Shown in pieces: positions 13,264 through 44,504 of a stretch of 47,796 nt of DNA. Position 1 is the stretch's first letter, and the number at the start of each line of letters is the position of its first letter. Made by a program: the position numbers and the translations under genes. The notes beneath the pieces were generated by a model, which was not told the origin of the DNA, did no database searches, and saw only the letters and a list, made by a program, of their open reading frames with translations. This stretch comes from Bacteroidia bacterium. GTDB lineage: Bacteria > Bacteroidota > Bacteroidia > B-17B0 > Aurantibacillaceae. The stretch is taken from positions 1 through 47,796 of the forward strand of contig JAEUTQ010000074.1 in NCBI GenBank assembly GCA_016787445.1, given 5' to 3'.

Positions 13264-14133
13264 GTGTCAGATACTCTTGCCAAACGCCGTGTTAAAACGT
13301 CTTCCATTACCGTAGTGGTAAGCTTAGCGCTTGTTTTATTCATGCTGGGCTTATTGGGATTAGTGGTGTTAAACGCCCGCAAACTTTCAAAGCACATTAA
13401 GGAAAATATCGGATTTCAGGTTATTTTAAAGGATACCACTACTGCGGCACAAATAGACGCTTTGCAACAGGAAATTACCGCGGCACCATTCGCGAAGAGT
13501 ATAAATCACATCACTAAGGAGCAAGCTGCAGAAAAATTAAAAGAGGATTTGGGTGAAGATTTTATTTCATTTTTAGGATACAATCCTTTACTCTCCACTT
13601 TAGATGTAAAACTAAATGAAGATTATGCGCATTCCGATTCTTTAATTGGAATTGAGAAAGGATTACTTCAGAAAGCCTATGTAAAGGAAGTCGTTTACCA
13701 TAAAGACATGATTAAGCAGGTGAATGAAAATGCGAAGGTGGTGAGTTTGTATATTTTAATTTTCAGCGGCTTATTAATGATTGTTGCAATTGCTTTAATC
13801 AACAACACCATTCGTCTCTCAATTTACTCACAGCGCTTTTTAATTCGTACCATGTATTTGGTAGGAGCTACGCGTGTTTTCATTAGCAAACCATTTATAT
13901 TTAAAGGTATTCGTCAGGGTGTAATTGCCGGTATATTAGCCGGTGCATTGTTGGCAGGATTTTTAGTGGTAAGTACTAATTACATTCCTGATTTATTGCA
14001 ATTACAAGATGAAAACATGCTGGCTGTTTTATTTGGCGGCATCATTTTACTTGGCATTTTTATCTCTGGAGTAAGCGCGATGTTCTCTGTTATGCGCTAC
14101 CTTCGCCTTAAAACAAGCGATTTATATTTTTAA
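13264..14133 (+). CDS. ftsX: Cell division protein FtsX (permease-like)
   Basis: 289 residues starting at GTG (S-D-T-L-A-K-R-R). Topology is that of FtsX: a short basic cytoplasmic N-terminus, first membrane helix at about 20-42, a periplasmic domain (about 45-160) and three C-terminal helices at about 165-190, 215-240 and 255-280. FtsX with the ATPase FtsE controls peptidoglycan hydrolases at the division site. ftsE is not adjacent, which is usual in Bacteroidota. The stop codon overlaps the convergent cysQ stop by 4 bases (TTAA shared). Confidence 0.9.
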   Translation: MSDTLAKRRVKTSSITVVVSLALVLFMLGLLGLVVLNARKLSKHIKENIGFQVILKDTTTAAQIDALQQEITAAPFAKSINHITKEQAAEKLKEDLGEDFISFLGYNPLLSTLDVKLNEDYAHSDSLIGIEKGLLQKAYVKEVVYHKDMIKQVNENAKVVSLYILIFSGLLMIVAIALINNTIRLSIYSQRFLIRTMYLVGATRVFISKPFIFKGIRQGVIAGILAGALLAGFLVVSTNYIPDLLQLQDENMLAVLFGGIILLGIFISGVSAMFSVMRYLRLKTSDLYF

Positions 14134-14942
14134 GATTTTCCTCTTGCTGTAAACCAATTATTGCGAAGTTCTTCGCGGTTGTAAAGCATGGGCTTTTGAG
14201 TAGAGAGATCAATTAACTCACAATTTGCATTTTCTAATATGGCTTGTCCTGCGGCGGTATCCCATTCCATGGTTGGACCAAAACGCGGATATTCATTAGC
14301 AATTCCCTCAGCCACCCAACACATTTTAATACTGCTTCCGGTGTTTACAATATTTACTTCGCCATGTTGTTGTTTTTTTTCTTCAATGTAAGCATAGGTT
14401 TCGCTGCTAAGATGCGAGCGACTTGCTACAATGGTATAAACTTCCGGATAATTCGTATGGGGTAATTTAGAAGCAGTACTAATTAAATTTTCAAAAGGGA
14501 TTTTTGACAATCCATTTTCAATGGCAATAAAATCGTGACGGTTAATTTTAAACGAACCCAAACCTTTTGCTGCGAAATATAAATCTTTAAATACCGGCGA
14601 AAAAATAACACCAATTACAGGTTTCTTATTTTCAATCAACGCGATGTTTACTGTAAATTCTCCGTTACGCTTTACAAATTCCTTAGTGCCGTCCAATGGA
14701 TCCACTACCCATAATTGCTTAAGTGATTTACGTTTTTCAAAAGAAAAATGTTCACCTTCTTCCGATAGAACAGGAATGTTGGTCTCGTGCAGTAACTCAA
14801 TAATTTTATCACTGGCGCGTTGGTCGGCTTGCGTTAGTGGTGTATCATCTTCTTTATATTGTACATTAAAAGCGGTATCGTACACCTCCAGTATTTCTTT
14901 ACCGGCTTCTACGGCCGCTAGAATGGCCTTATGAAGTAAAAT
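14130..14942 (-). CDS. cysQ: 3'(2'),5'-bisphosphate nucleotidase CysQ; probable ATT start
   Basis: Magnesium-dependent phosphatase of the inositol monophosphatase fold that hydrolyses PAP, a by-product of sulphate assimilation. Diagnostic motifs: VLSEEGE, WVVDPLDGTKEFVKRNGEFT (metal site and lithium-sensitive motif), STGS-like NTGSSIKMC and WDTAAGQAIL. The first canonical start is a GTG at 14885, giving 251 residues but cutting away the first helix. The frame stays open upstream and reads LLHKAILAAVEAGKEILEVY, which aligns with the E. coli CysQ N-terminus ([20 protein letters not shown]). No ATG, GTG or TTG exists upstream before the TAA at 14970-14972. The codon at the expected start is ATT (14940-14942), giving 270 residues. 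It overlaps the end of nothing but lies just 8 bases after lgt. Confidence 0.85.
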   Translation of the reverse strand: MLLHKAILAAVEAGKEILEVYDTAFNVQYKEDDTPLTQADQRASDKIIELLHETNIPVLSEEGEHFSFEKRKSLKQLWVVDPLDGTKEFVKRNGEFTVNIALIENKKPVIGVIFSPVFKDLYFAAKGLGSFKINRHDFIAIENGLSKIPFENLISTASKLPHTNYPEVYTIVASRSHLSSETYAYIEEKKQQHGEVNIVNTGSSIKMCWVAEGIANEYPRFGPTMEWDTAAGQAILENANCELIDLSTQKPMLYNREELRNNWFTARGKS

Positions 14943-14950
14943 ATGTAATT

Positions 14951-15766
14951 CTAAGCTGATGGCGATTCTTTAGTAGTGTTTATAAGCTTAGTTGAGCGCC
15001 ACATCATAAACAATCCAATAATTACAAATGGAATGCTTAATAATTGCCCCATGTTTAAAGTCATCGCATTTTCAAATGCTTCCTGATTTTCTTTAAAGAA
15101 TTCGTCAATAAAACGCTCTGTAAATAACAGAACACACATTAATCCGAACATAAACCCCGGACCAAACTGATGACGTTTGTTTTTCCATAAGTAGTACATT
15201 ACAAAAAACAGTATCAAACAAAAAATACTTTCGTATAATTGAGCGGGGTGGCGCGGTAATTTATCCACGCTTTCAAATACAAAAGCCCATGGAACATCAG
15301 TAGGTTTACCGATAATTTCCGAATTCATTAAATTGCCAAAACGTATTAATGCAGCAGCCAGCGGCGCTACCACTACAATTTTATCAAATACCCAAAGCAA
15401 GCTCTCTTTGGTCTTTCTGCAATAAAGCCACATGCCGGCTAAAATACCAATGGCACCGCCATGACTCGCTAATCCTCCCTCATAAACTTTTAAAATATCT
15501 AAAGGATGCGATAAATAATAAGCAGGATCATAGAATAAACAATGCCCTAAGCGAGCACCGGCTACAGTGCCGATAATAATATACAGAGTTAAAATATCAA
15601 GATCTTTTTCAGTACGGCCTTCAGTTCTGTAAATACGATTCATGATAAAATGACTTCCAATGAATGAAAGTGCCCACATTAAACCGTACCATCTAACCGG
15701 CCAGTCAATACCCGGAATTGTGAAAATTTCGGGACTTGGATTCCAATGAATAAAATTCTGAAACAT
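14951..15766 (-). CDS. lgt: Prolipoprotein diacylglyceryl transferase
   Basis: 271-residue inner-membrane enzyme that attaches diacylglycerol to the lipobox cysteine, the first step of lipoprotein maturation. RWYGLMW near residue 25, GGLASHGG with His102 and the Lgt signature RFGNLMNSEIIG (142-153, with Arg142) correspond closely in position to the E. coli His103/Arg143 region. About seven hydrophobic helices are visible. The C-terminal RFIDEFFKENQE is also conserved. It is upstream of and probably co-transcribed with cysQ. Several lipoproteins in this window (10193, 10557, 32346 and 38609 genes) are predicted substrates. Confidence 0.96.
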   Translation of the reverse strand: MFQNFIHWNPSPEIFTIPGIDWPVRWYGLMWALSFIGSHFIMNRIYRTEGRTEKDLDILTLYIIIGTVAGARLGHCLFYDPAYYLSHPLDILKVYEGGLASHGGAIGILAGMWLYCRKTKESLLWVFDKIVVVAPLAAALIRFGNLMNSEIIGKPTDVPWAFVFESVDKLPRHPAQLYESIFCLILFFVMYYLWKNKRHQFGPGFMFGLMCVLLFTERFIDEFFKENQEAFENAMTLNMGQLLSIPFVIIGLFMMWRSTKLINTTKESPSA

Positions 15767-39140: not shown

Positions 39141-39758
39141 GTGCGTAAATTAGCAGTATTGAATAGAATTGTTGTCATATTTTTTTTCCTGACGTTTTTT
39201 GCCGATTTGTCAGCTCAACGCGACACCTTACCTTATAATCGTAAGGAAGAGATTGTTTATGATAGTAAGCGTTACCGTAAATACAACAATTATTTAACTT
39301 TTGGTTTCGGGAAAGGCTTTTCCGATGTGAGGAGAATAGATCAAAGCTATATCAATGTTGATTTTCAATTCCATTTGCAGCGCGAGTATTTTCAGGTTGG
39401 AGTGATTATGAGTGGTGATGATTTTTTAAGAAATAATAATTTACAAGGGCATCTCTGTTATGGCTATCGTATCGAAAAAGAAAAATATAATCTGGCGGGG
39501 TTTATCGGCCCCTCTTATTCCTATTTTGTGACCGGCACGACGGATACAGCCGGCGTTACCACCATTCAGTCGCATAGTGTGTTGGGTGGTTATATGTGCC
39601 TTTCTGCAGTTTATAAAATTAAGTATGATGTAGGATTAGGTATCGAATTATTCGGTGATATCTCCGCTGAGCAAAAGCAGGCCGGAGCCCGAGTGGTGTT
39701 CTTTTTTTCAGGTGCTTATCGTGGCATAAAGAGGGGTTTTAAAACCAAACCAAAGTAA
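39141..39758 (+). CDS. Small outer-membrane beta-barrel-like protein (unknown)
   Basis: 205 residues from a GTG. Signal peptide VVIFFFLTFFADLSAQ. The mature domain alternates polar and hydrophobic residues over about eight strands (YLTFGFGKGFSDV, INVDFQFHLQREYFQVGVIM, AGFIGPSYSYFV, VVFFFSGAY), like an eight-stranded barrel. It has no named family that I recognise. The short C-terminal tail is basic. Its stop lies one base before the probable ATT start of the oxidoreductase gene, so the two are likely co-transcribed and translationally coupled. Confidence 0.75.
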   Translation: MRKLAVLNRIVVIFFFLTFFADLSAQRDTLPYNRKEEIVYDSKRYRKYNNYLTFGFGKGFSDVRRIDQSYINVDFQFHLQREYFQVGVIMSGDDFLRNNNLQGHLCYGYRIEKEKYNLAGFIGPSYSYFVTGTTDTAGVTTIQSHSVLGGYMCLSAVYKIKYDVGLGIELFGDISAEQKQAGARVVFFFSGAYRGIKRGFKTKPK

Positions 39759-39759
39759 A

Positions 39760-40818
39760 ATTAAAACAGACTTTATAATCGTTGGACAAGGTTTGGCAGG
39801 CTCCGTTCTGTCATTACAACTTATTGAGAAAGGATTTAAAGTTATTGTTATTGATGAGCCGAGCTTATCCGCTTCTTCCCGTGTTGCTGCGGGCATATGG
39901 AATCCTGTAGTGTTTAAGCGTCTTACCAAAAGCTGGATGGTCGATGAAATTCTTCCTGTTATGCTAGAATTTTATCAAGCCCAGGAGAAAAAATTTGGAG
40001 TTCAATTATTGCATCACCGAAACATTATCAAATTATTCAGTGAACTGCAAGAAGTCAATCTTTGGTTTAAAAAAGCATCGGCTGAAATGTCGGACTATTT
40101 AGACAAAGAAATTTCTGTAAATGGATTGCCAAAAACTATTAAGTTGTTAGATGTGGGTTACGCAAAGGTGTTAAGAGCCGGCAATTTGAATTTACCTTTG
40201 TTTTTAAATACAGTCACTAATAACTTGCAATCATCGGGAATGTATCTTCAGGAGAAATTTGATTTTTCGGTGTTTTCTCCCTCGTTGGTAAAATACAAAG
40301 ACATTGAAGCAAGGTATATTGTATTTTGCGAAGGGTATTTAATAAGCAAGAATCCTTTATTTAAATACATCCCAATGAAACCTGCAAAGGGCGAGGTTTT
40401 AACTATGCAAATGGATGATTTAAAATTAGAGAAGGATATCCTCAATAAAAACGCATTCATTATGCCTTTGGAAAATAATTTATTTAAGGTGGGGGCTACT
40501 TATAATTGGAATGATTTATCTGATTCTCCAACTGAAGAGGCAAAACTAGAGTTGTTGAATAAATTAAACCGTATCACTGAATTAGAAGGTAATGTAATAC
40601 GTCATGAAGCGGGCGTTAGACCTTCCGTCATTGACCGCCGGCCGGTTTTGGGCGCTCATCCCGCTTTTAAAAATGTATTTGTTTTTAACGGTATGGGAAC
40701 TAAGGGCGTTATGCTGGCTCCTTTTTTTGTAAATCATTTAGTAGAACATATTACTCAGCAAAAAAAACTGAATAAAGAGGTGGATATTGCCCGGTTTAAT
40801 CAATTTTTTGTAAATTAA
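39760..40818 (+). CDS. FAD-dependent oxidoreductase (DAO family); probable ATT start
   Basis: 352 residues if started at ATT (39760). The first canonical codon, a TTG at 39793, would cut into the FAD-binding motif: the frame upstream reads KTDFIIVGQGLAGSVLSLQL, giving GxGxxG (G-Q-G-L-A-G) at residues 9-14 of the longer form. Homologues as I know them begin M-K-x-D-Y/F-I-V-G-Q-G. No ATG, GTG or TTG occurs upstream before the in-frame TAA at 39727-39729. The C-terminal HEAGVRPSVIDRRPVLG and FVFNGMGTKGVMLAPF are typical of the glycine oxidase/DAO fold. The physiological substrate is unknown; small amino acids are candidates. Confidence 0.78.
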   Translation: MKTDFIIVGQGLAGSVLSLQLIEKGFKVIVIDEPSLSASSRVAAGIWNPVVFKRLTKSWMVDEILPVMLEFYQAQEKKFGVQLLHHRNIIKLFSELQEVNLWFKKASAEMSDYLDKEISVNGLPKTIKLLDVGYAKVLRAGNLNLPLFLNTVTNNLQSSGMYLQEKFDFSVFSPSLVKYKDIEARYIVFCEGYLISKNPLFKYIPMKPAKGEVLTMQMDDLKLEKDILNKNAFIMPLENNLFKVGATYNWNDLSDSPTEEAKLELLNKLNRITELEGNVIRHEAGVRPSVIDRRPVLGAHPAFKNVFVFNGMGTKGVMLAPFFVNHLVEHITQQKKLNKEVDIARFNQFFVN

Positions 40819-40839: not shown

Positions 40840-41310
40840 ATGGCACTCAAAAAAAATAAGATAAGGTTAATCGGCCGACGAGAGTTTGTAGACTTCCCGC
40901 AACTTAAATTGTTTTCAATTGAAGCTAAAATTGATACCGGCGCTTATACTTCAGCCATTCATTGTAAGGATATCCAGCTTAAAACAGAGAATGGTAAGCA
41001 GGTATTATGCTTTAAGTTATTAGACAACACACATCCCGAGTATTCCGAACAAGTACACGAGTTTTCTGAATTTTTCAGAAAGAAAATTAAAAATTCTTTC
41101 GGTGAAATGGAGGAGCGTTATATCATTAAAACAGTGGTAAAAATCGGAAGGAAAAATATTTTGACTACACTTTCATTAAGCGATCGCGAAAACATGCGCT
41201 ATCCTGTTTTAATAGGACGACGATTACTAAAAGGTAAGTTTATTGTGGATGTCAATAAAATACATATTAACGGACAACGAATTAAAAAATCATTAAACGA
41301 TTATATTTGA
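40840..41310 (+). CDS. RimB-like retropepsin-type protease (ATP-dependent zinc protease family)
   Basis: 156 residues. The active-site-like motif is IDTGAYTSAIH (Asp32, Thr33, Gly34), followed by a compact all-beta protein with YPVLIGRRLLKGKFIVDV near the end, as in retropepsin-like folds. The family is usually listed as putative ATP-dependent zinc protease, also called RimB when beside rimK. In Pseudomonas rimB and rimK act together in modifying ribosomal protein S6 (knowledge of the family). Here it precedes rimK by 10 bases. The oxidoreductase gene ends 21 bases upstream. Confidence 0.88.
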   Translation: MALKKNKIRLIGRREFVDFPQLKLFSIEAKIDTGAYTSAIHCKDIQLKTENGKQVLCFKLLDNTHPEYSEQVHEFSEFFRKKIKNSFGEMEERYIIKTVVKIGRKNILTTLSLSDRENMRYPVLIGRRLLKGKFIVDVNKIHINGQRIKKSLNDYI

Positions 41311-41320
41311 TTAACTCATT

Positions 41321-42217
41321 ATGAAAATAGCTGTATTATCTCGAAACAGAAATCTGTATTCTACCAAACGTATTTTGGAAGCAGGTGAAAAACGCGGGCA
41401 TGAAATGTTATTGCTCGATCACATGAAATGCGTTCTGGTTATCGAACAGGGTCGTCCCCATATTTATTATGGTGGAAAAGAAGTAACGGATGTAAATGCG
41501 GTGATACCACGGATTGGCGCATCTGCTACTTTCTATGGTTCAGCCGTTGTTCGTCAGTTTGAAATGATGAAAATATTTACCGCTGTTGAGTCACAAGCCT
41601 TAGTTCGTTCACGCGATAAATTACGCAGCTTACAAATTTTAGCACGAGCAGGCTTAGGAATTCCTAAAACAGCTTTTGCGTCTTCACCAAAGGATAAAGA
41701 TATTGATAGCGTAATCGATGCAATTGGTGGCGCTCCTTGCGTCGTGAAATTATTGGAAGGTACGCAAGGCATTGGTGTAATTTTAGCGGAAAATCAAAAA
41801 GCGGCTAAATCAGTTATTGAAGCGTTTTTGAAATTAGAAGCGAACATGTTGGTGCAGGAATTTATTAAAGAAGCCGGCGGCGCCGATTTGCGTGTGTTTG
41901 TTGTAGACGGACAAGTTGTTGGAGCAATGAAGCGTCAGGCGCGTGAAGGTGAATTCAGAAGTAATTTACATAGGGGAGGGACGGCGACCGTTATAAACCT
42001 TACGCCGGAAGAAAGAGCGACTGCTATTAAAGCGGCAAAAAAATTAGGTTTGGGAATAGCGGGTGTGGATTTACTGCAAAGCTCACGCGGACCATTAGTG
42101 ATGGAAGTAAATTCATCTCCGGGATTAGAAGGAATTGAAGGCGCTACCGGATTGGATATTGCCGGAAAAATAATTGAGTATGTTGAGCGTAACGAGTTTA
42201 ATAAGCCCGGCGAATAG
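41321..42217 (+). CDS. rimK: RimK-family alpha-L-glutamate ligase (ATP-grasp)
   Basis: 298 residues, length of E. coli RimK. The N-terminal domain starts [18 protein letters not shown] and has [11 protein letters not shown]. The ATP-grasp core includes [38 protein letters not shown] and the metal-binding [18 protein letters not shown]. RimK adds glutamates to the C-terminus of ribosomal protein S6; family relatives make poly-glutamate and related amide bonds, so other acceptors are possible. It is flanked by the RimB-like gene (10 bases before) and a deacylase gene (2 bases after), a compact set of one operon. Confidence 0.93.
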
Positions 42218-42219
42218 GT

Positions 42220-43167
42220 ATGCAGGAAACCATTACCATAAACGGTCAGCAGATAGCGGCAGGAGAAAACAAAACAGTGGTGCTAAACTCTTATGAGTTG
42301 CATACCAAATCATATATTAAAATTCCTGTTCATGTCATTCGAAGCGTAAATCCCGGACCAACCATTATGTTTAGTGCGGGTATGCACGGTGAAGAAACCA
42401 ATGGTGTTGAAATTATCCGCAGGTTAGTGAATCATGAAGAAGTGGTGAATTTAAAACGCGGAACCATCATTGCCATTCCTGTCATTAACATTGTTTCTTT
42501 TTTATATTCAACACGCGATTTGCCCGACGGACGTGATTTGAATCGTTGTTTTCCCGGAAGTAAAAATGGCTCTTTAGGAAGCAGAATTGCTTACGATTTA
42601 ATGAAGCATATTATTCCGCTTATTGATTTTGGTGTTGACTTTCATACTGGTGGAGCTAAGATCAGCAACTATCCTCAGATTCGTTGCGTATTCGATTTTC
42701 CTGAAAACTTATCAATAGCCGAAAAGTTTTCGGCACCACTTATTATTGATAGCAAGTACCGAGAAGGAACATTAAGAAAGGAAGCCGCTAAAAAGAATAA
42801 ACCTATTCTTGTTTTTGAAGGTGGTGAAAGTATGCGCTTTGATTATTTATCCATCAACGAAGGAATTAATGGCTGTTTGCGCTTAATGAAATCACACCAA
42901 ATGATTGCAATGGAAATTCCCAACAATCCGCATGTAAAAGTAATCCGTGATTCTTGGATTCGTGCTAAAGCGAGCGGTTTGTTTCATATGAACGCGAATA
43001 ATGGCGCACATGTACGCAAAGACGATTTGTTAGGTGTAATATGTAATCCTTTCGGTGAAATTGAACATAAAATCCTTTCACCTGTTGATGCCTATATAGT
43101 AGGAATAAATAACCAGCCGATAGTGAACGAAGGCGATGCCCTCATTCATTTAGGGATGGAAGATTAA
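42220..43167 (+). CDS. Succinylglutamate desuccinylase/aspartoacylase-family (M14) protein
   Basis: 315-residue zinc hydrolase of the AstE/AspA group. GMHGEETNG supplies the first His/Glu pair (His56, Glu59), a DFHTGG segment near residue 141 supplies the next zinc histidine, and the late FEGGE segment is the probable catalytic Glu. A C-terminal beta domain (about 235-315, HKILSPVDAYIVGI) is the lipoyl-like hammerhead of the family. True AstE works in arginine catabolism, but none of those genes is here. Neighbours of rimK in many genomes carry this type, which suggests removal of an acyl or amide group related to the RimK product (inference). Confidence 0.9.
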   Translation: MQETITINGQQIAAGENKTVVLNSYELHTKSYIKIPVHVIRSVNPGPTIMFSAGMHGEETNGVEIIRRLVNHEEVVNLKRGTIIAIPVINIVSFLYSTRDLPDGRDLNRCFPGSKNGSLGSRIAYDLMKHIIPLIDFGVDFHTGGAKISNYPQIRCVFDFPENLSIAEKFSAPLIIDSKYREGTLRKEAAKKNKPILVFEGGESMRFDYLSINEGINGCLRLMKSHQMIAMEIPNNPHVKVIRDSWIRAKASGLFHMNANNGAHVRKDDLLGVICNPFGEIEHKILSPVDAYIVGINNQPIVNEGDALIHLGMED

Positions 43168-43169
43168 TT

Positions 43170-44504
43170 ATGAAACAGACTGATGTAATAATTATTGGAG
43201 GTGGCCCTGCTGGAAGTGCTATGGCTTGTTACATAGCTAGATCAGGCGCCTCATGCATTGTATTTGAAAAGGAAAAATTTCCTCGTCCGCATGTGGGAGA
43301 ATCTTTGGTGCCAGCCAGTAATCGCGTTTTCAATGATCTTAATTTCTTTCCAAAAATGGAAGCGGAAGGATTTTTGAAAAAGTTTGGTGCGGCATGGACC
43401 ACCTATAGCTCTGCAAATATTTATAATCACGATTTTGCCGAGTTTAAAGGAAGTGATGTAGATATTTTATTTAACGAAAGAAAGCAAAAAGATATTCATG
43501 AGCCACACACCTATCATGTTGATCGTGGTCGTTTCGATCAATTATTGTTAGAGCATGCTGCCGAAATGGGAGCATCAACATTTCAGGAAGCTGATGTTTT
43601 TCATGTAGATTTTATTGATAAAAGCAATGTGCATGTAAGTGTAAGAATGAAGGATGGGCAAGAAGAGAAATTTGGCTGCAAAATATTAGTCGACGCCAGC
43701 GGACGACACACCTTCATGGGAAACAAATTAAAAATTAAAGTAAAAGACCCTGTTTTTAATCAGTGTGCGGTACATACCTGGTTCAGCGGATTTAACCGGA
43801 ATGCGTTTAAAGACCCTGACTTTATTTATATACATTTTATTCCGGTTTCCAATTCATGGATGTGGCAGATTCCTATAACTGATGAAATTACCAGTGTAGG
43901 ATTAGTAAGTCAGAAACAGAATTTTCCGAATACAAAAGAAGGTCGTGAAAAGTTTTTTTGGGAGTGTGCAGAATTACGACCGGAACTTTTGGCCGAACTA
44001 AAGAAAGCAAAGCAAATAAGAGATTTTACAGTTGAAGCAGATTACAGTTACGCGATGACTGAATTAGTGAAGGATAATTTGGTGTTGATTGGTGATGCTG
44101 CACGATTTGTGGATCCGATTTTTTCGAGTGGAGTAAGTATTGCCTTAAATAGCGCAAGATTTGCATCCGCAGATATAATTAGAGCATTACAAAGCAATAA
44201 TTACGAAAAGAGTTCTTTTGCTAACTATGAGAGTACTTTAAAACGCGGAGTAAATAATTGGTATCGATTTATTCAGATGTATTATCGCTTAAATATTTTG
44301 TTTACCTATTTCGTGAATACTCCTGAGTATCGTTTAGATGTTTTGAAATTTTTGCAAGGCGATGTGTATGATGAAGAAAATCCTTGTCTATTAAAAGCGA
44401 TGGAGAAAATTATCACACAAGTAGAAAACAATCCAAAGCATCCACTGCATGCCATGTTAGGCACGTTAACTTCTAAGTCGTTTAATGTTTTTGGGGCAAA
44501 GTAA
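43170..44504 (+). CDS. FAD-dependent halogenase-like oxidoreductase
   Basis: 444 residues. N-terminal FAD motif GGGPAG (10-15) and FPRPHVGESLVP. Two halogenase hallmarks are visible: the WxWxIP motif (Trp230, Trp232, Ile234, Pro235) and a lysine in FLKKFGAAW (Lys70/71) at about the place of the catalytic Lys. GDAARFVDPIFSSGVSIAL (about 308-326) strongly resembles the equivalent segment of CmlS/CndH-type phenolic halogenases. Members of this family are also annotated as plain FAD oxidoreductases or geranylgeranyl-reductase-like, and activity cannot be read from sequence. It begins 2 bases after the deacylase gene, so it shares that operon. It ends 2 bases from the convergent mce stop. Confidence 0.85.
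   Translation: MKQTDVIIIGGGPAGSAMACYIARSGASCIVFEKEKFPRPHVGESLVPASNRVFNDLNFFPKMEAEGFLKKFGAAWTTYSSANIYNHDFAEFKGSDVDILFNERKQKDIHEPHTYHVDRGRFDQLLLEHAAEMGASTFQEADVFHVDFIDKSNVHVSVRMKDGQEEKFGCKILVDASGRHTFMGNKLKIKVKDPVFNQCAVHTWFSGFNRNAFKDPDFIYIHFIPVSNSWMWQIPITDEITSVGLVSQKQNFPNTKEGREKFFWECAELRPELLAELKKAKQIRDFTVEADYSYAMTELVKDNLVLIGDAARFVDPIFSSGVSIALNSARFASADIIRALQSNNYEKSSFANYESTLKRGVNNWYRFIQMYYRLNILFTYFVNTPEYRLDVLKFLQGDVYDEENPCLLKAMEKIITQVENNPKHPLHAMLGTLTSKSFNVFGAK

Follow-up and report, generated by a model that had tools for sequence, protein, structure and literature searches.

A FAD oxidoreductase gene with a predicted ATT start codon and recurring predicted near-cognate start codons in one genus of Bacteroidota

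Introduction

Translation from near-cognate start codons is known in bacteria, with infC and pcnB as examples, and such starts are usually weak. In Escherichia coli, both genes start at AUU; infC is translationally regulated, and the expression of pcnB is reduced because of its AUU codon (PMC1780047). Initiation factor IF3 has accordingly been described as a repressor of its own AUU-started gene (PMC5472188). In Staphylococcus aureus, AUH starts were mapped by ribosome profiling for cvfC1 (AUU) as well as for ccpN and infC (AUA), and cvfC1 and ccpN reporters gave a yield below that of AUG (PMC13009471). Streptomyces sigR, which is repressed by IF3 and serves as a model for IF3-sensitive expression, starts at a GTC codon missed by annotation (PMC5472188), and fixed non-canonical starts are carried by six of 2265 conserved Listeria genes, including infC with ATT and rnhC with ATC (PMC13068326).

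Bacteroidia ribosomes are reported not to use Shine-Dalgarno sequences because the tail of their 16S rRNA is sequestered (PMC9976891). In Flavobacterium johnsoniae, A residues at positions -3, -6, -12 and -13 and a weakly structured region favour initiation in the absence of Shine-Dalgarno pairing (PMC6847099); these positions are also reported for this species in PMC9976891. The main text of the former paper contains neither "AUU" nor "non-AUG", and no report on near-cognate starts in Bacteroidota was found among the titles and abstract openings listed in searches of the open-access PMC literature.

Here, we describe a gene located in a window of 47,796 nucleotides, the whole stretch of DNA analysed, from the genome of a Bacteroidia bacterium (G000). 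This gene, which encodes a FAD oxidoreductase, lacks a canonical start ahead of its dinucleotide-binding motif, and we consider it very likely that it is initiated at the ATT codon at 39760 by an ordinary initiator tRNA, probably with reduced and IF3-sensitive efficiency. The predicted AUU start is shared with infC and pcnB of E. coli; unlike these genes, the FAD gene has no Shine-Dalgarno sequence and belongs to a Bacteroidota host, and IF3 control is proposed for it by analogy. In S. aureus, AUH codons are predicted to be selected through an extended Shine-Dalgarno sequence (PMC13009471), whereas such a sequence is absent here except at infC. The present case differs from sigR in codon, phylum and gene, and the sigR start was tested experimentally while the start described here is predicted from sequence.

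Reading frame and predicted protein

The FAD oxidoreductase frame is bounded upstream by an in-frame TAA stop codon (39727..39729, + strand) and continues from 39730 with the codons AGA GGG GTT TTA AAA CCA AAC CAA AGT AAA ATT (39760) AAA ACA GAC TTT ATA ATC GTT GGA CAA GGT TTG (39793). No ATG, GTG or TTG was found in this frame between the TAA and TTG 39793, so that this codon-by-codon reading confirmed what an earlier sequence-only reading of the window had claimed. The first canonical start codon, TTG (39793..39795, +), specifies residue 12 and lies within the dinucleotide-binding motif GQGLAG (GxGxxG; residues 9–14, 39784..39801, +). Its role as the real start is unsupported; as the same reading had stated, it is the sole canonical option and would destroy the motif. 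The predicted start codon ATT (39760..39762, +; residue 1) is separated by one spacer base from the TAA stop (39756-39758) of the preceding gene (39141..39758, +), which encodes 205 amino acids without a Pfam match; this adjacency had also been recognised correctly. From ATT, the gene (39760..40818, +) encodes a protein of 352 amino acids. Further downstream on the same strand, positions 40840-44504 of the window carry closely spaced genes for a Zn_protease-family protein (PF05618), a RimK-like ligase, an AstE/AspA-like enzyme and a second FAD enzyme of the halogenase/FAD_binding_3 type.

The deduced protein matched the Pfam family DAO from profile position 1 with 93.3 bits (cut-off 27.9). When started at TTG 39793, it reached only 79.8 bits and the match began at profile position 10. 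An AlphaFold model of the protein read from ATT showed a mean pLDDT of 89.3, with a mean of 94 over residues 1–10, and placed the first strand at residues 2–8, so that ATT 39760 lies just ahead of this strand, which would be lost if translation began at TTG. According to both Pfam and AlphaFold, the N-terminal strand and the GxGxxG motif are intact only with the ATT start. A Foldseek search identified glycine oxidases as the nearest solved structures, the best being the ThiO glycine oxidase 1ng3 (E = 2.4e-18, 18% identity). Based on the DAO match above the cut-off and the Foldseek hit, the gene product is assigned as a glycine-oxidase-like FAD oxidoreductase of the DAO family with predicted FAD binding.

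Homologues and start position

A search for the FAD oxidoreductase gave a match in 128 of 150 genomes, that of the window included, and a scan of named genomes for this protein kept 80 of 547 relatives. After removal of 26 duplicates from 110 fetched loci, the frames of 84 distinct homologue loci were read. A canonical start upstream of the motif was present in 78 of them. The nearest one lay 7–10 codons before the first motif glycine in 53 of these 78 loci and at least 7 codons before the motif in 77, codons fewer than 5 before the motif being left out. The homologue alignment thus agrees with the earlier proposal that ATT 39760 sits where homologues begin, and the codon of the FAD gene at the homologues' start column is one base away from ATG.

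No usable canonical start was found in six of the 84 loci (G000, G007, G001, G005, G011 and L057). Four of them lack any canonical start, and in L057 the sole one is a GTG that immediately precedes the motif. In G005 (locus L007), the only canonical codons are a TTG and a GTG, 31 and 25 codons upstream, and a further GTG next to the motif, none of which is counted as its start; the classification of G005 is a judgement made because the upstream GTG and TTG probably lie inside the previous gene. A further genus member read later as a fragment, G003, carries an ATT 9 codons before the motif and an in-frame GTG further upstream, which, like the upstream codons of G005, is located where the previous gene probably still runs and was judged not to be the start.

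With G000 and G007 counted once, ATT, ATC or ATA occurred 8 or 9 codons before the first motif glycine in 5/5 start-less loci and in 10/69 controls (Fisher p = 1.9e-4); these five loci are not all independent, because G001 and G005 (weakly supported) as well as G011 and L057 group together on the tree. Wider offsets gave 5/5 against 14/68 (8–10 codons, p = 7.7e-4) and 5/5 against 18/68 (7–10 codons, p = 0.002). Within the genus, near-cognate codons occupy the FAD start place in five of eight genomes, namely ATT in G000, G007 and G003, ATA (or ATC) in G001 and ATA in G005; the other three (G002, G004, G006) have ATG. On the tree of the 84 proteins, the distribution of loci with and without a canonical start needs at least three changes, two of which are forced by well-supported branches. 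Outside the genus, an in-frame canonical start was present in 22 of 23 FAD loci (L008-L030), the exception being L019 from another genus of the family. The missing canonical FAD start is not confined to the genus: L019 lacks one and L057 lacks a usable one.

Start context and conservation

A position model of the start context was built from 119 ATG starts of G000 and used to score the codons from 39730 to 39808. ATT 39760 reached a score of 6.21, the best of all codons scored, exceeding 99.84% of the 28,792 ATTs and 81.5% of the starts used for training, in a model that holds modest information and rewards A-richness generally. The score of TTG 39793 was -2.03, corresponding to the 7.6% level of the training starts. 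Relative to ATT 39760, A is found at -1, -2, -3, -6, -7, -8, -11, -12 and -13, which includes all four positions of the A-rich, Kozak-like initiation of F. johnsoniae. The A-rich initiation region (39740..39771, +) has a mean unpaired probability of 0.60, and a GGAGG-type Shine-Dalgarno sequence was looked for a few bases upstream of ATT 39760 and not found. The unpaired probability at ATT (0.599) corresponds to the 75th percentile of 189 ATG starts and the 93rd of 257 mid-gene sites, compared with the 2nd and 4th percentiles for TTG 39793 (0.305).

The sister species G007 matches the window with 95.5% DNA identity over 43 kb, and its FAD orthologue has the same ATT. The coding sequences differ at 117 of 1056 sites (dN 0.058, dS 0.414), and the resulting dN/dS of about 0.14 indicates that the gene is under purifying selection. 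In contrast to these differences at 11% of the sites, the 66 bases at 39735-39800 around the ATT show no base change, a hint that the initiation region itself may be under selection. Residues 1–11 of the protein are likewise unchanged. Six clusters of public proteins (P0002-P0007, 87–100% identical to the query) all begin with MAGSVL, that is, at the internal TTG; five have a length of 341 amino acids and P0003 has 332. P0002 and P0003 may include the window's own record and P0006 is possibly the copy of G007. The remaining three clusters suggest that upstream canonical starts are missing from further assemblies as well, as MAGSVL beginnings would be expected there. Taken together, homologue position, context, accessibility, conservation in the sister species, purifying selection and the predicted fold support ATT 39760 as the start codon better than any other codon.

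Alternative explanations

The public records P0002-P0007 were called from TTG 39793, the first canonical codon, and initiation there would yield a 341-residue protein devoid of strand 1 and of half the GxGxxG motif. We regard this start as highly improbable: it removes residues 1–11 with the strand and GQG, precisely those residues that are identical in G007, its context and accessibility are poor, and most homologues (53/78) have their nearest canonical start 7–10 codons before the motif. Very unlikely as well is another in-frame near-cognate start such as ATA 39775 or ATC 39778. Each of these codons is one base from ATG and would preserve GxGxxG, but with context scores of 0.6 and 1.1 they remain far below ATT 39760, they lie inside strand 1, and they are only 3 and 2 codons away from the motif, a distance of at least 7 codons being kept in 77 of 78 homologue loci. 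A start codon would be unneeded if a programmed frameshift near the stop of the preceding gene fused this gene to the FAD gene. The two frames indeed abut (stop at 39756-39758, ATT at 39760), and our orthologue survey described below also recovered prfB, the classic frameshift gene. Nevertheless, we give this explanation very little credence, because the genus relatives G002, G004 and G006 use ATG to start a separate FAD protein and no fusion occurred among the 120 homologues listed of 2798 (332–369 residues), a set for which fusions longer than 1.75 times the query were not candidates. A fusion would also leave the aligned near-cognate codon unexplained.

Genes can become pseudogenes by losing a canonical start, and the FAD gene might be decaying with its translation already gone. 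This appears extremely improbable in view of the intact frame and the low dN/dS relative to G007. Moreover, the start-less state is common to five of eight genus members with no stop in the matched part (G003 being a fragment), and at least three changes on the tree speak against a single accident. An assembly or base-calling error at 39760 could be suspected in a genome of 83 contigs. Its probability is close to nil, since the independent assembly of G007 has the same base at this position and the internal TTG was also chosen in further public assemblies, as would happen if an upstream canonical start were missing there.

Initiation machinery and proposed mechanism

The sequence-only reading had suggested inspecting IF3 for variation; the factor of G000 is apparently intact at the domain level (IF3_N 1–69 of 70, IF3_C 1–86 of 86), and it aligns with solved IF3 structures. 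An initiator-type tRNA-Met with the anticodon CAT and a GGGCTCATAACCC arm, a mark of initiator tRNAs, is present. Neither the IF3 domains nor this tRNA gave any sign of an altered initiation machinery. With an ordinary tRNA and a complete IF3, the simplest reading of a start at ATT 39760 is normal pairing of fMet-tRNA at two of three bases.

We propose that fMet-tRNA would pair with two of the three bases of AUU, and that the weak codon would be offset by the A-rich open region favoured by Bacteroidota ribosomes and by ribosomes delivered to ATT on completing the preceding gene. Speaking against such delivery, published work found reinitiation coupling to be strongest with overlapping genes, and a gap of 2 nt reduced it by 5, 20 and 70% in three gene pairs of E. 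coli (PMC10666635). IF3 proofreading would hold FAD output low, as for infC of E. coli. By analogy to infC, pcnB and sigR, FAD expression should be low and should be lowered further by IF3. The same arrangement is predicted for other genes, with ATC, ATA or CTG replacing ATT in cysQ, rnpA and the FAD orthologues of the genus and with ATT in a DUF5819 gene.

Predicted near-cognate start codons in other genes

The cysQ-like gene of the Inositol_P family (14130..14960, - strand) has ATC (14960-14958) at the aligned start column, and its first canonical codon is GTG 14885, 28 codons into the frame. The sequence-only reading had named this gene beside the FAD gene as a case of ATT initiation; a near-cognate start is supported, the codon ATT is not. 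ATT 14942, tried as the cysQ start, was rejected, as its context is poor (-4.8) and the alignment of relatives gives ATC 14960. Judging from this alignment, ATC 14960 is the most probable start of cysQ; the gene would then overlap the 3' end of the one before it. The start column holds ATC in G000, G007 and G006, ATT in G004, ATG in G001 and TTG in G002 and G005; the starts read exclude that of G003, in which cysQ turned up in fragments only. In G006, no canonical codon occurs within the first 97 codons of homology. A canonical start is missing in four of 30 loci, all of them among the seven genus loci read, whereas 23 of 23 loci outside the genus have one. The context score of the ATC was 6.1 in G006 and -0.7 (77th percentile) in G000.

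For rnpA (L113, 15849-16217; relatives L247-L251), CTG without an earlier canonical codon was observed in five of seven genus genomes and TTG at the same column in the other two. The CTG codons have context scores of 5.5–6.2, and in G004 an upstream ATA scores higher (7.2 vs 6.1). Both rnpA and infC were searched for in G005 and not found. The DUF5819 gene (L255, G000:C18:60616-61137; genus loci L254-L261) begins with TAG AGC ATT AAA in all eight genus genomes. Among 22 loci outside the genus, read as protein letters, at least eight have isoleucine at the start place and seem to lack a prior canonical start, and nine have ATG near the start; a similar start probably exists in another genus of the family. 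The ATT has middling context scores (-1.3 to 0.9), and in five of eight genomes it is outscored by a later in-frame ATA, ATT or ATC; the exact start codon is therefore assigned by conservation alone.

The infC gene carries GGAGGTNANT-ATT in all seven genus genomes with a match, and GGAGGT precedes the ATT. Its low score in the A-rich model (-2.1) is what would be expected if a Shine-Dalgarno sequence leads initiation there. The 30 best family loci, from 77 genomes with a match, included 22 that were readable; 16 of these lack a canonical start, and the other eight loci were not placed. A strong GGAGG is kept before ATT or ATC in infC of G000 (L131, G000:C64 1330-1380), its six genus relatives and the family loci (L262-L291), despite reports that ribosomes of Bacteroidia disregard Shine-Dalgarno sequences. 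The reported case of rpsU is a parallel (PMC9976891).

The aligned sequences thus support near-cognate codons at the start column of five gene families (FAD oxidoreductase, cysQ, rnpA, DUF5819 and infC). The earlier suggestion that ATT initiation is a real feature of this genome holds when widened to predicted near-cognate starts in these families; restricted to ATT, it does not, since ATC is found in cysQ of G000, CTG in rnpA and ATA or ATC in relatives of the FAD gene. What appears to be new is the occurrence of several conserved, predicted near-cognate starts without a Shine-Dalgarno sequence (infC excepted), recurring in one genus of a phylum whose ribosomes are reported to ignore such sequences. 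A more far-reaching proposal, tentative and in our opinion rather doubtful, is that dozens of genes in this genus, rnpA, cysQ and the FAD gene among them, start at AUU, AUC, AUA or CUG in A-rich regions without a Shine-Dalgarno sequence and form an ordinary layer of control whose output follows IF3 activity. Such a set would stay invisible, because gene finders accept only ATG, GTG and TTG. Start prediction leans heavily on these three codons (PMC5472188), and as a consequence genes with near-cognate starts are expected to be truncated or wrongly started in databases; the oxidoreductase is a case in point, its closest public versions being without strand 1 of their FAD domain. Should the pattern hold up, Bacteroidota would be a natural setting in which to test how weak starts are chosen without Shine-Dalgarno pairing and whether a whole group of genes is tuned through IF3 levels.

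Surveys across the genus

A coding-potential scan of 394 kb of G000 (257 genes with an upstream stop), which has little power, ranked cysQ second and the FAD gene third. An orthologue survey of five genus genomes proved more informative; 516 ORFs with a diverged orthologue were examined and flagged when homology extended at least 7 codons above the first canonical start. By-eye sorting of the 54 flagged ORFs gave 11 near-cognate cases, two rows that we take to be prfB, a known frameshift gene that serves as a positive control, and 41 rows set aside as overlapping genes, nearby canonical starts or ambiguous. The 11 cases comprise FAD, cysQ and rnpA in G000, the same three genes and DUF5819 in G007, cysQ and DUF5819 in G006, rnpA in G002 and FAD in G001. 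The yields of 3/91 for G000 and 4/172 for G007 are not unbiased rates, because the window was chosen for the finding. In Listeria, about 0.3% of conserved genes have such starts (PMC13068326); the higher figure obtained here comes from a small, partly selected sample.

In the neighbouring genus g7, 190 ORFs of two genomes yielded 20 flagged rows and no confident near-cognate start; one possible case is a gene of G030 beginning with ATC AAA. The difference between this neighbour and the genus is no more than suggestive. A 262-codon frame of G000 without a Pfam match (L119, 16443-17228, - strand), one of the ambiguous rows of the orthologue survey, is conserved in G006 above its first canonical start and may possibly represent a further non-canonical start.
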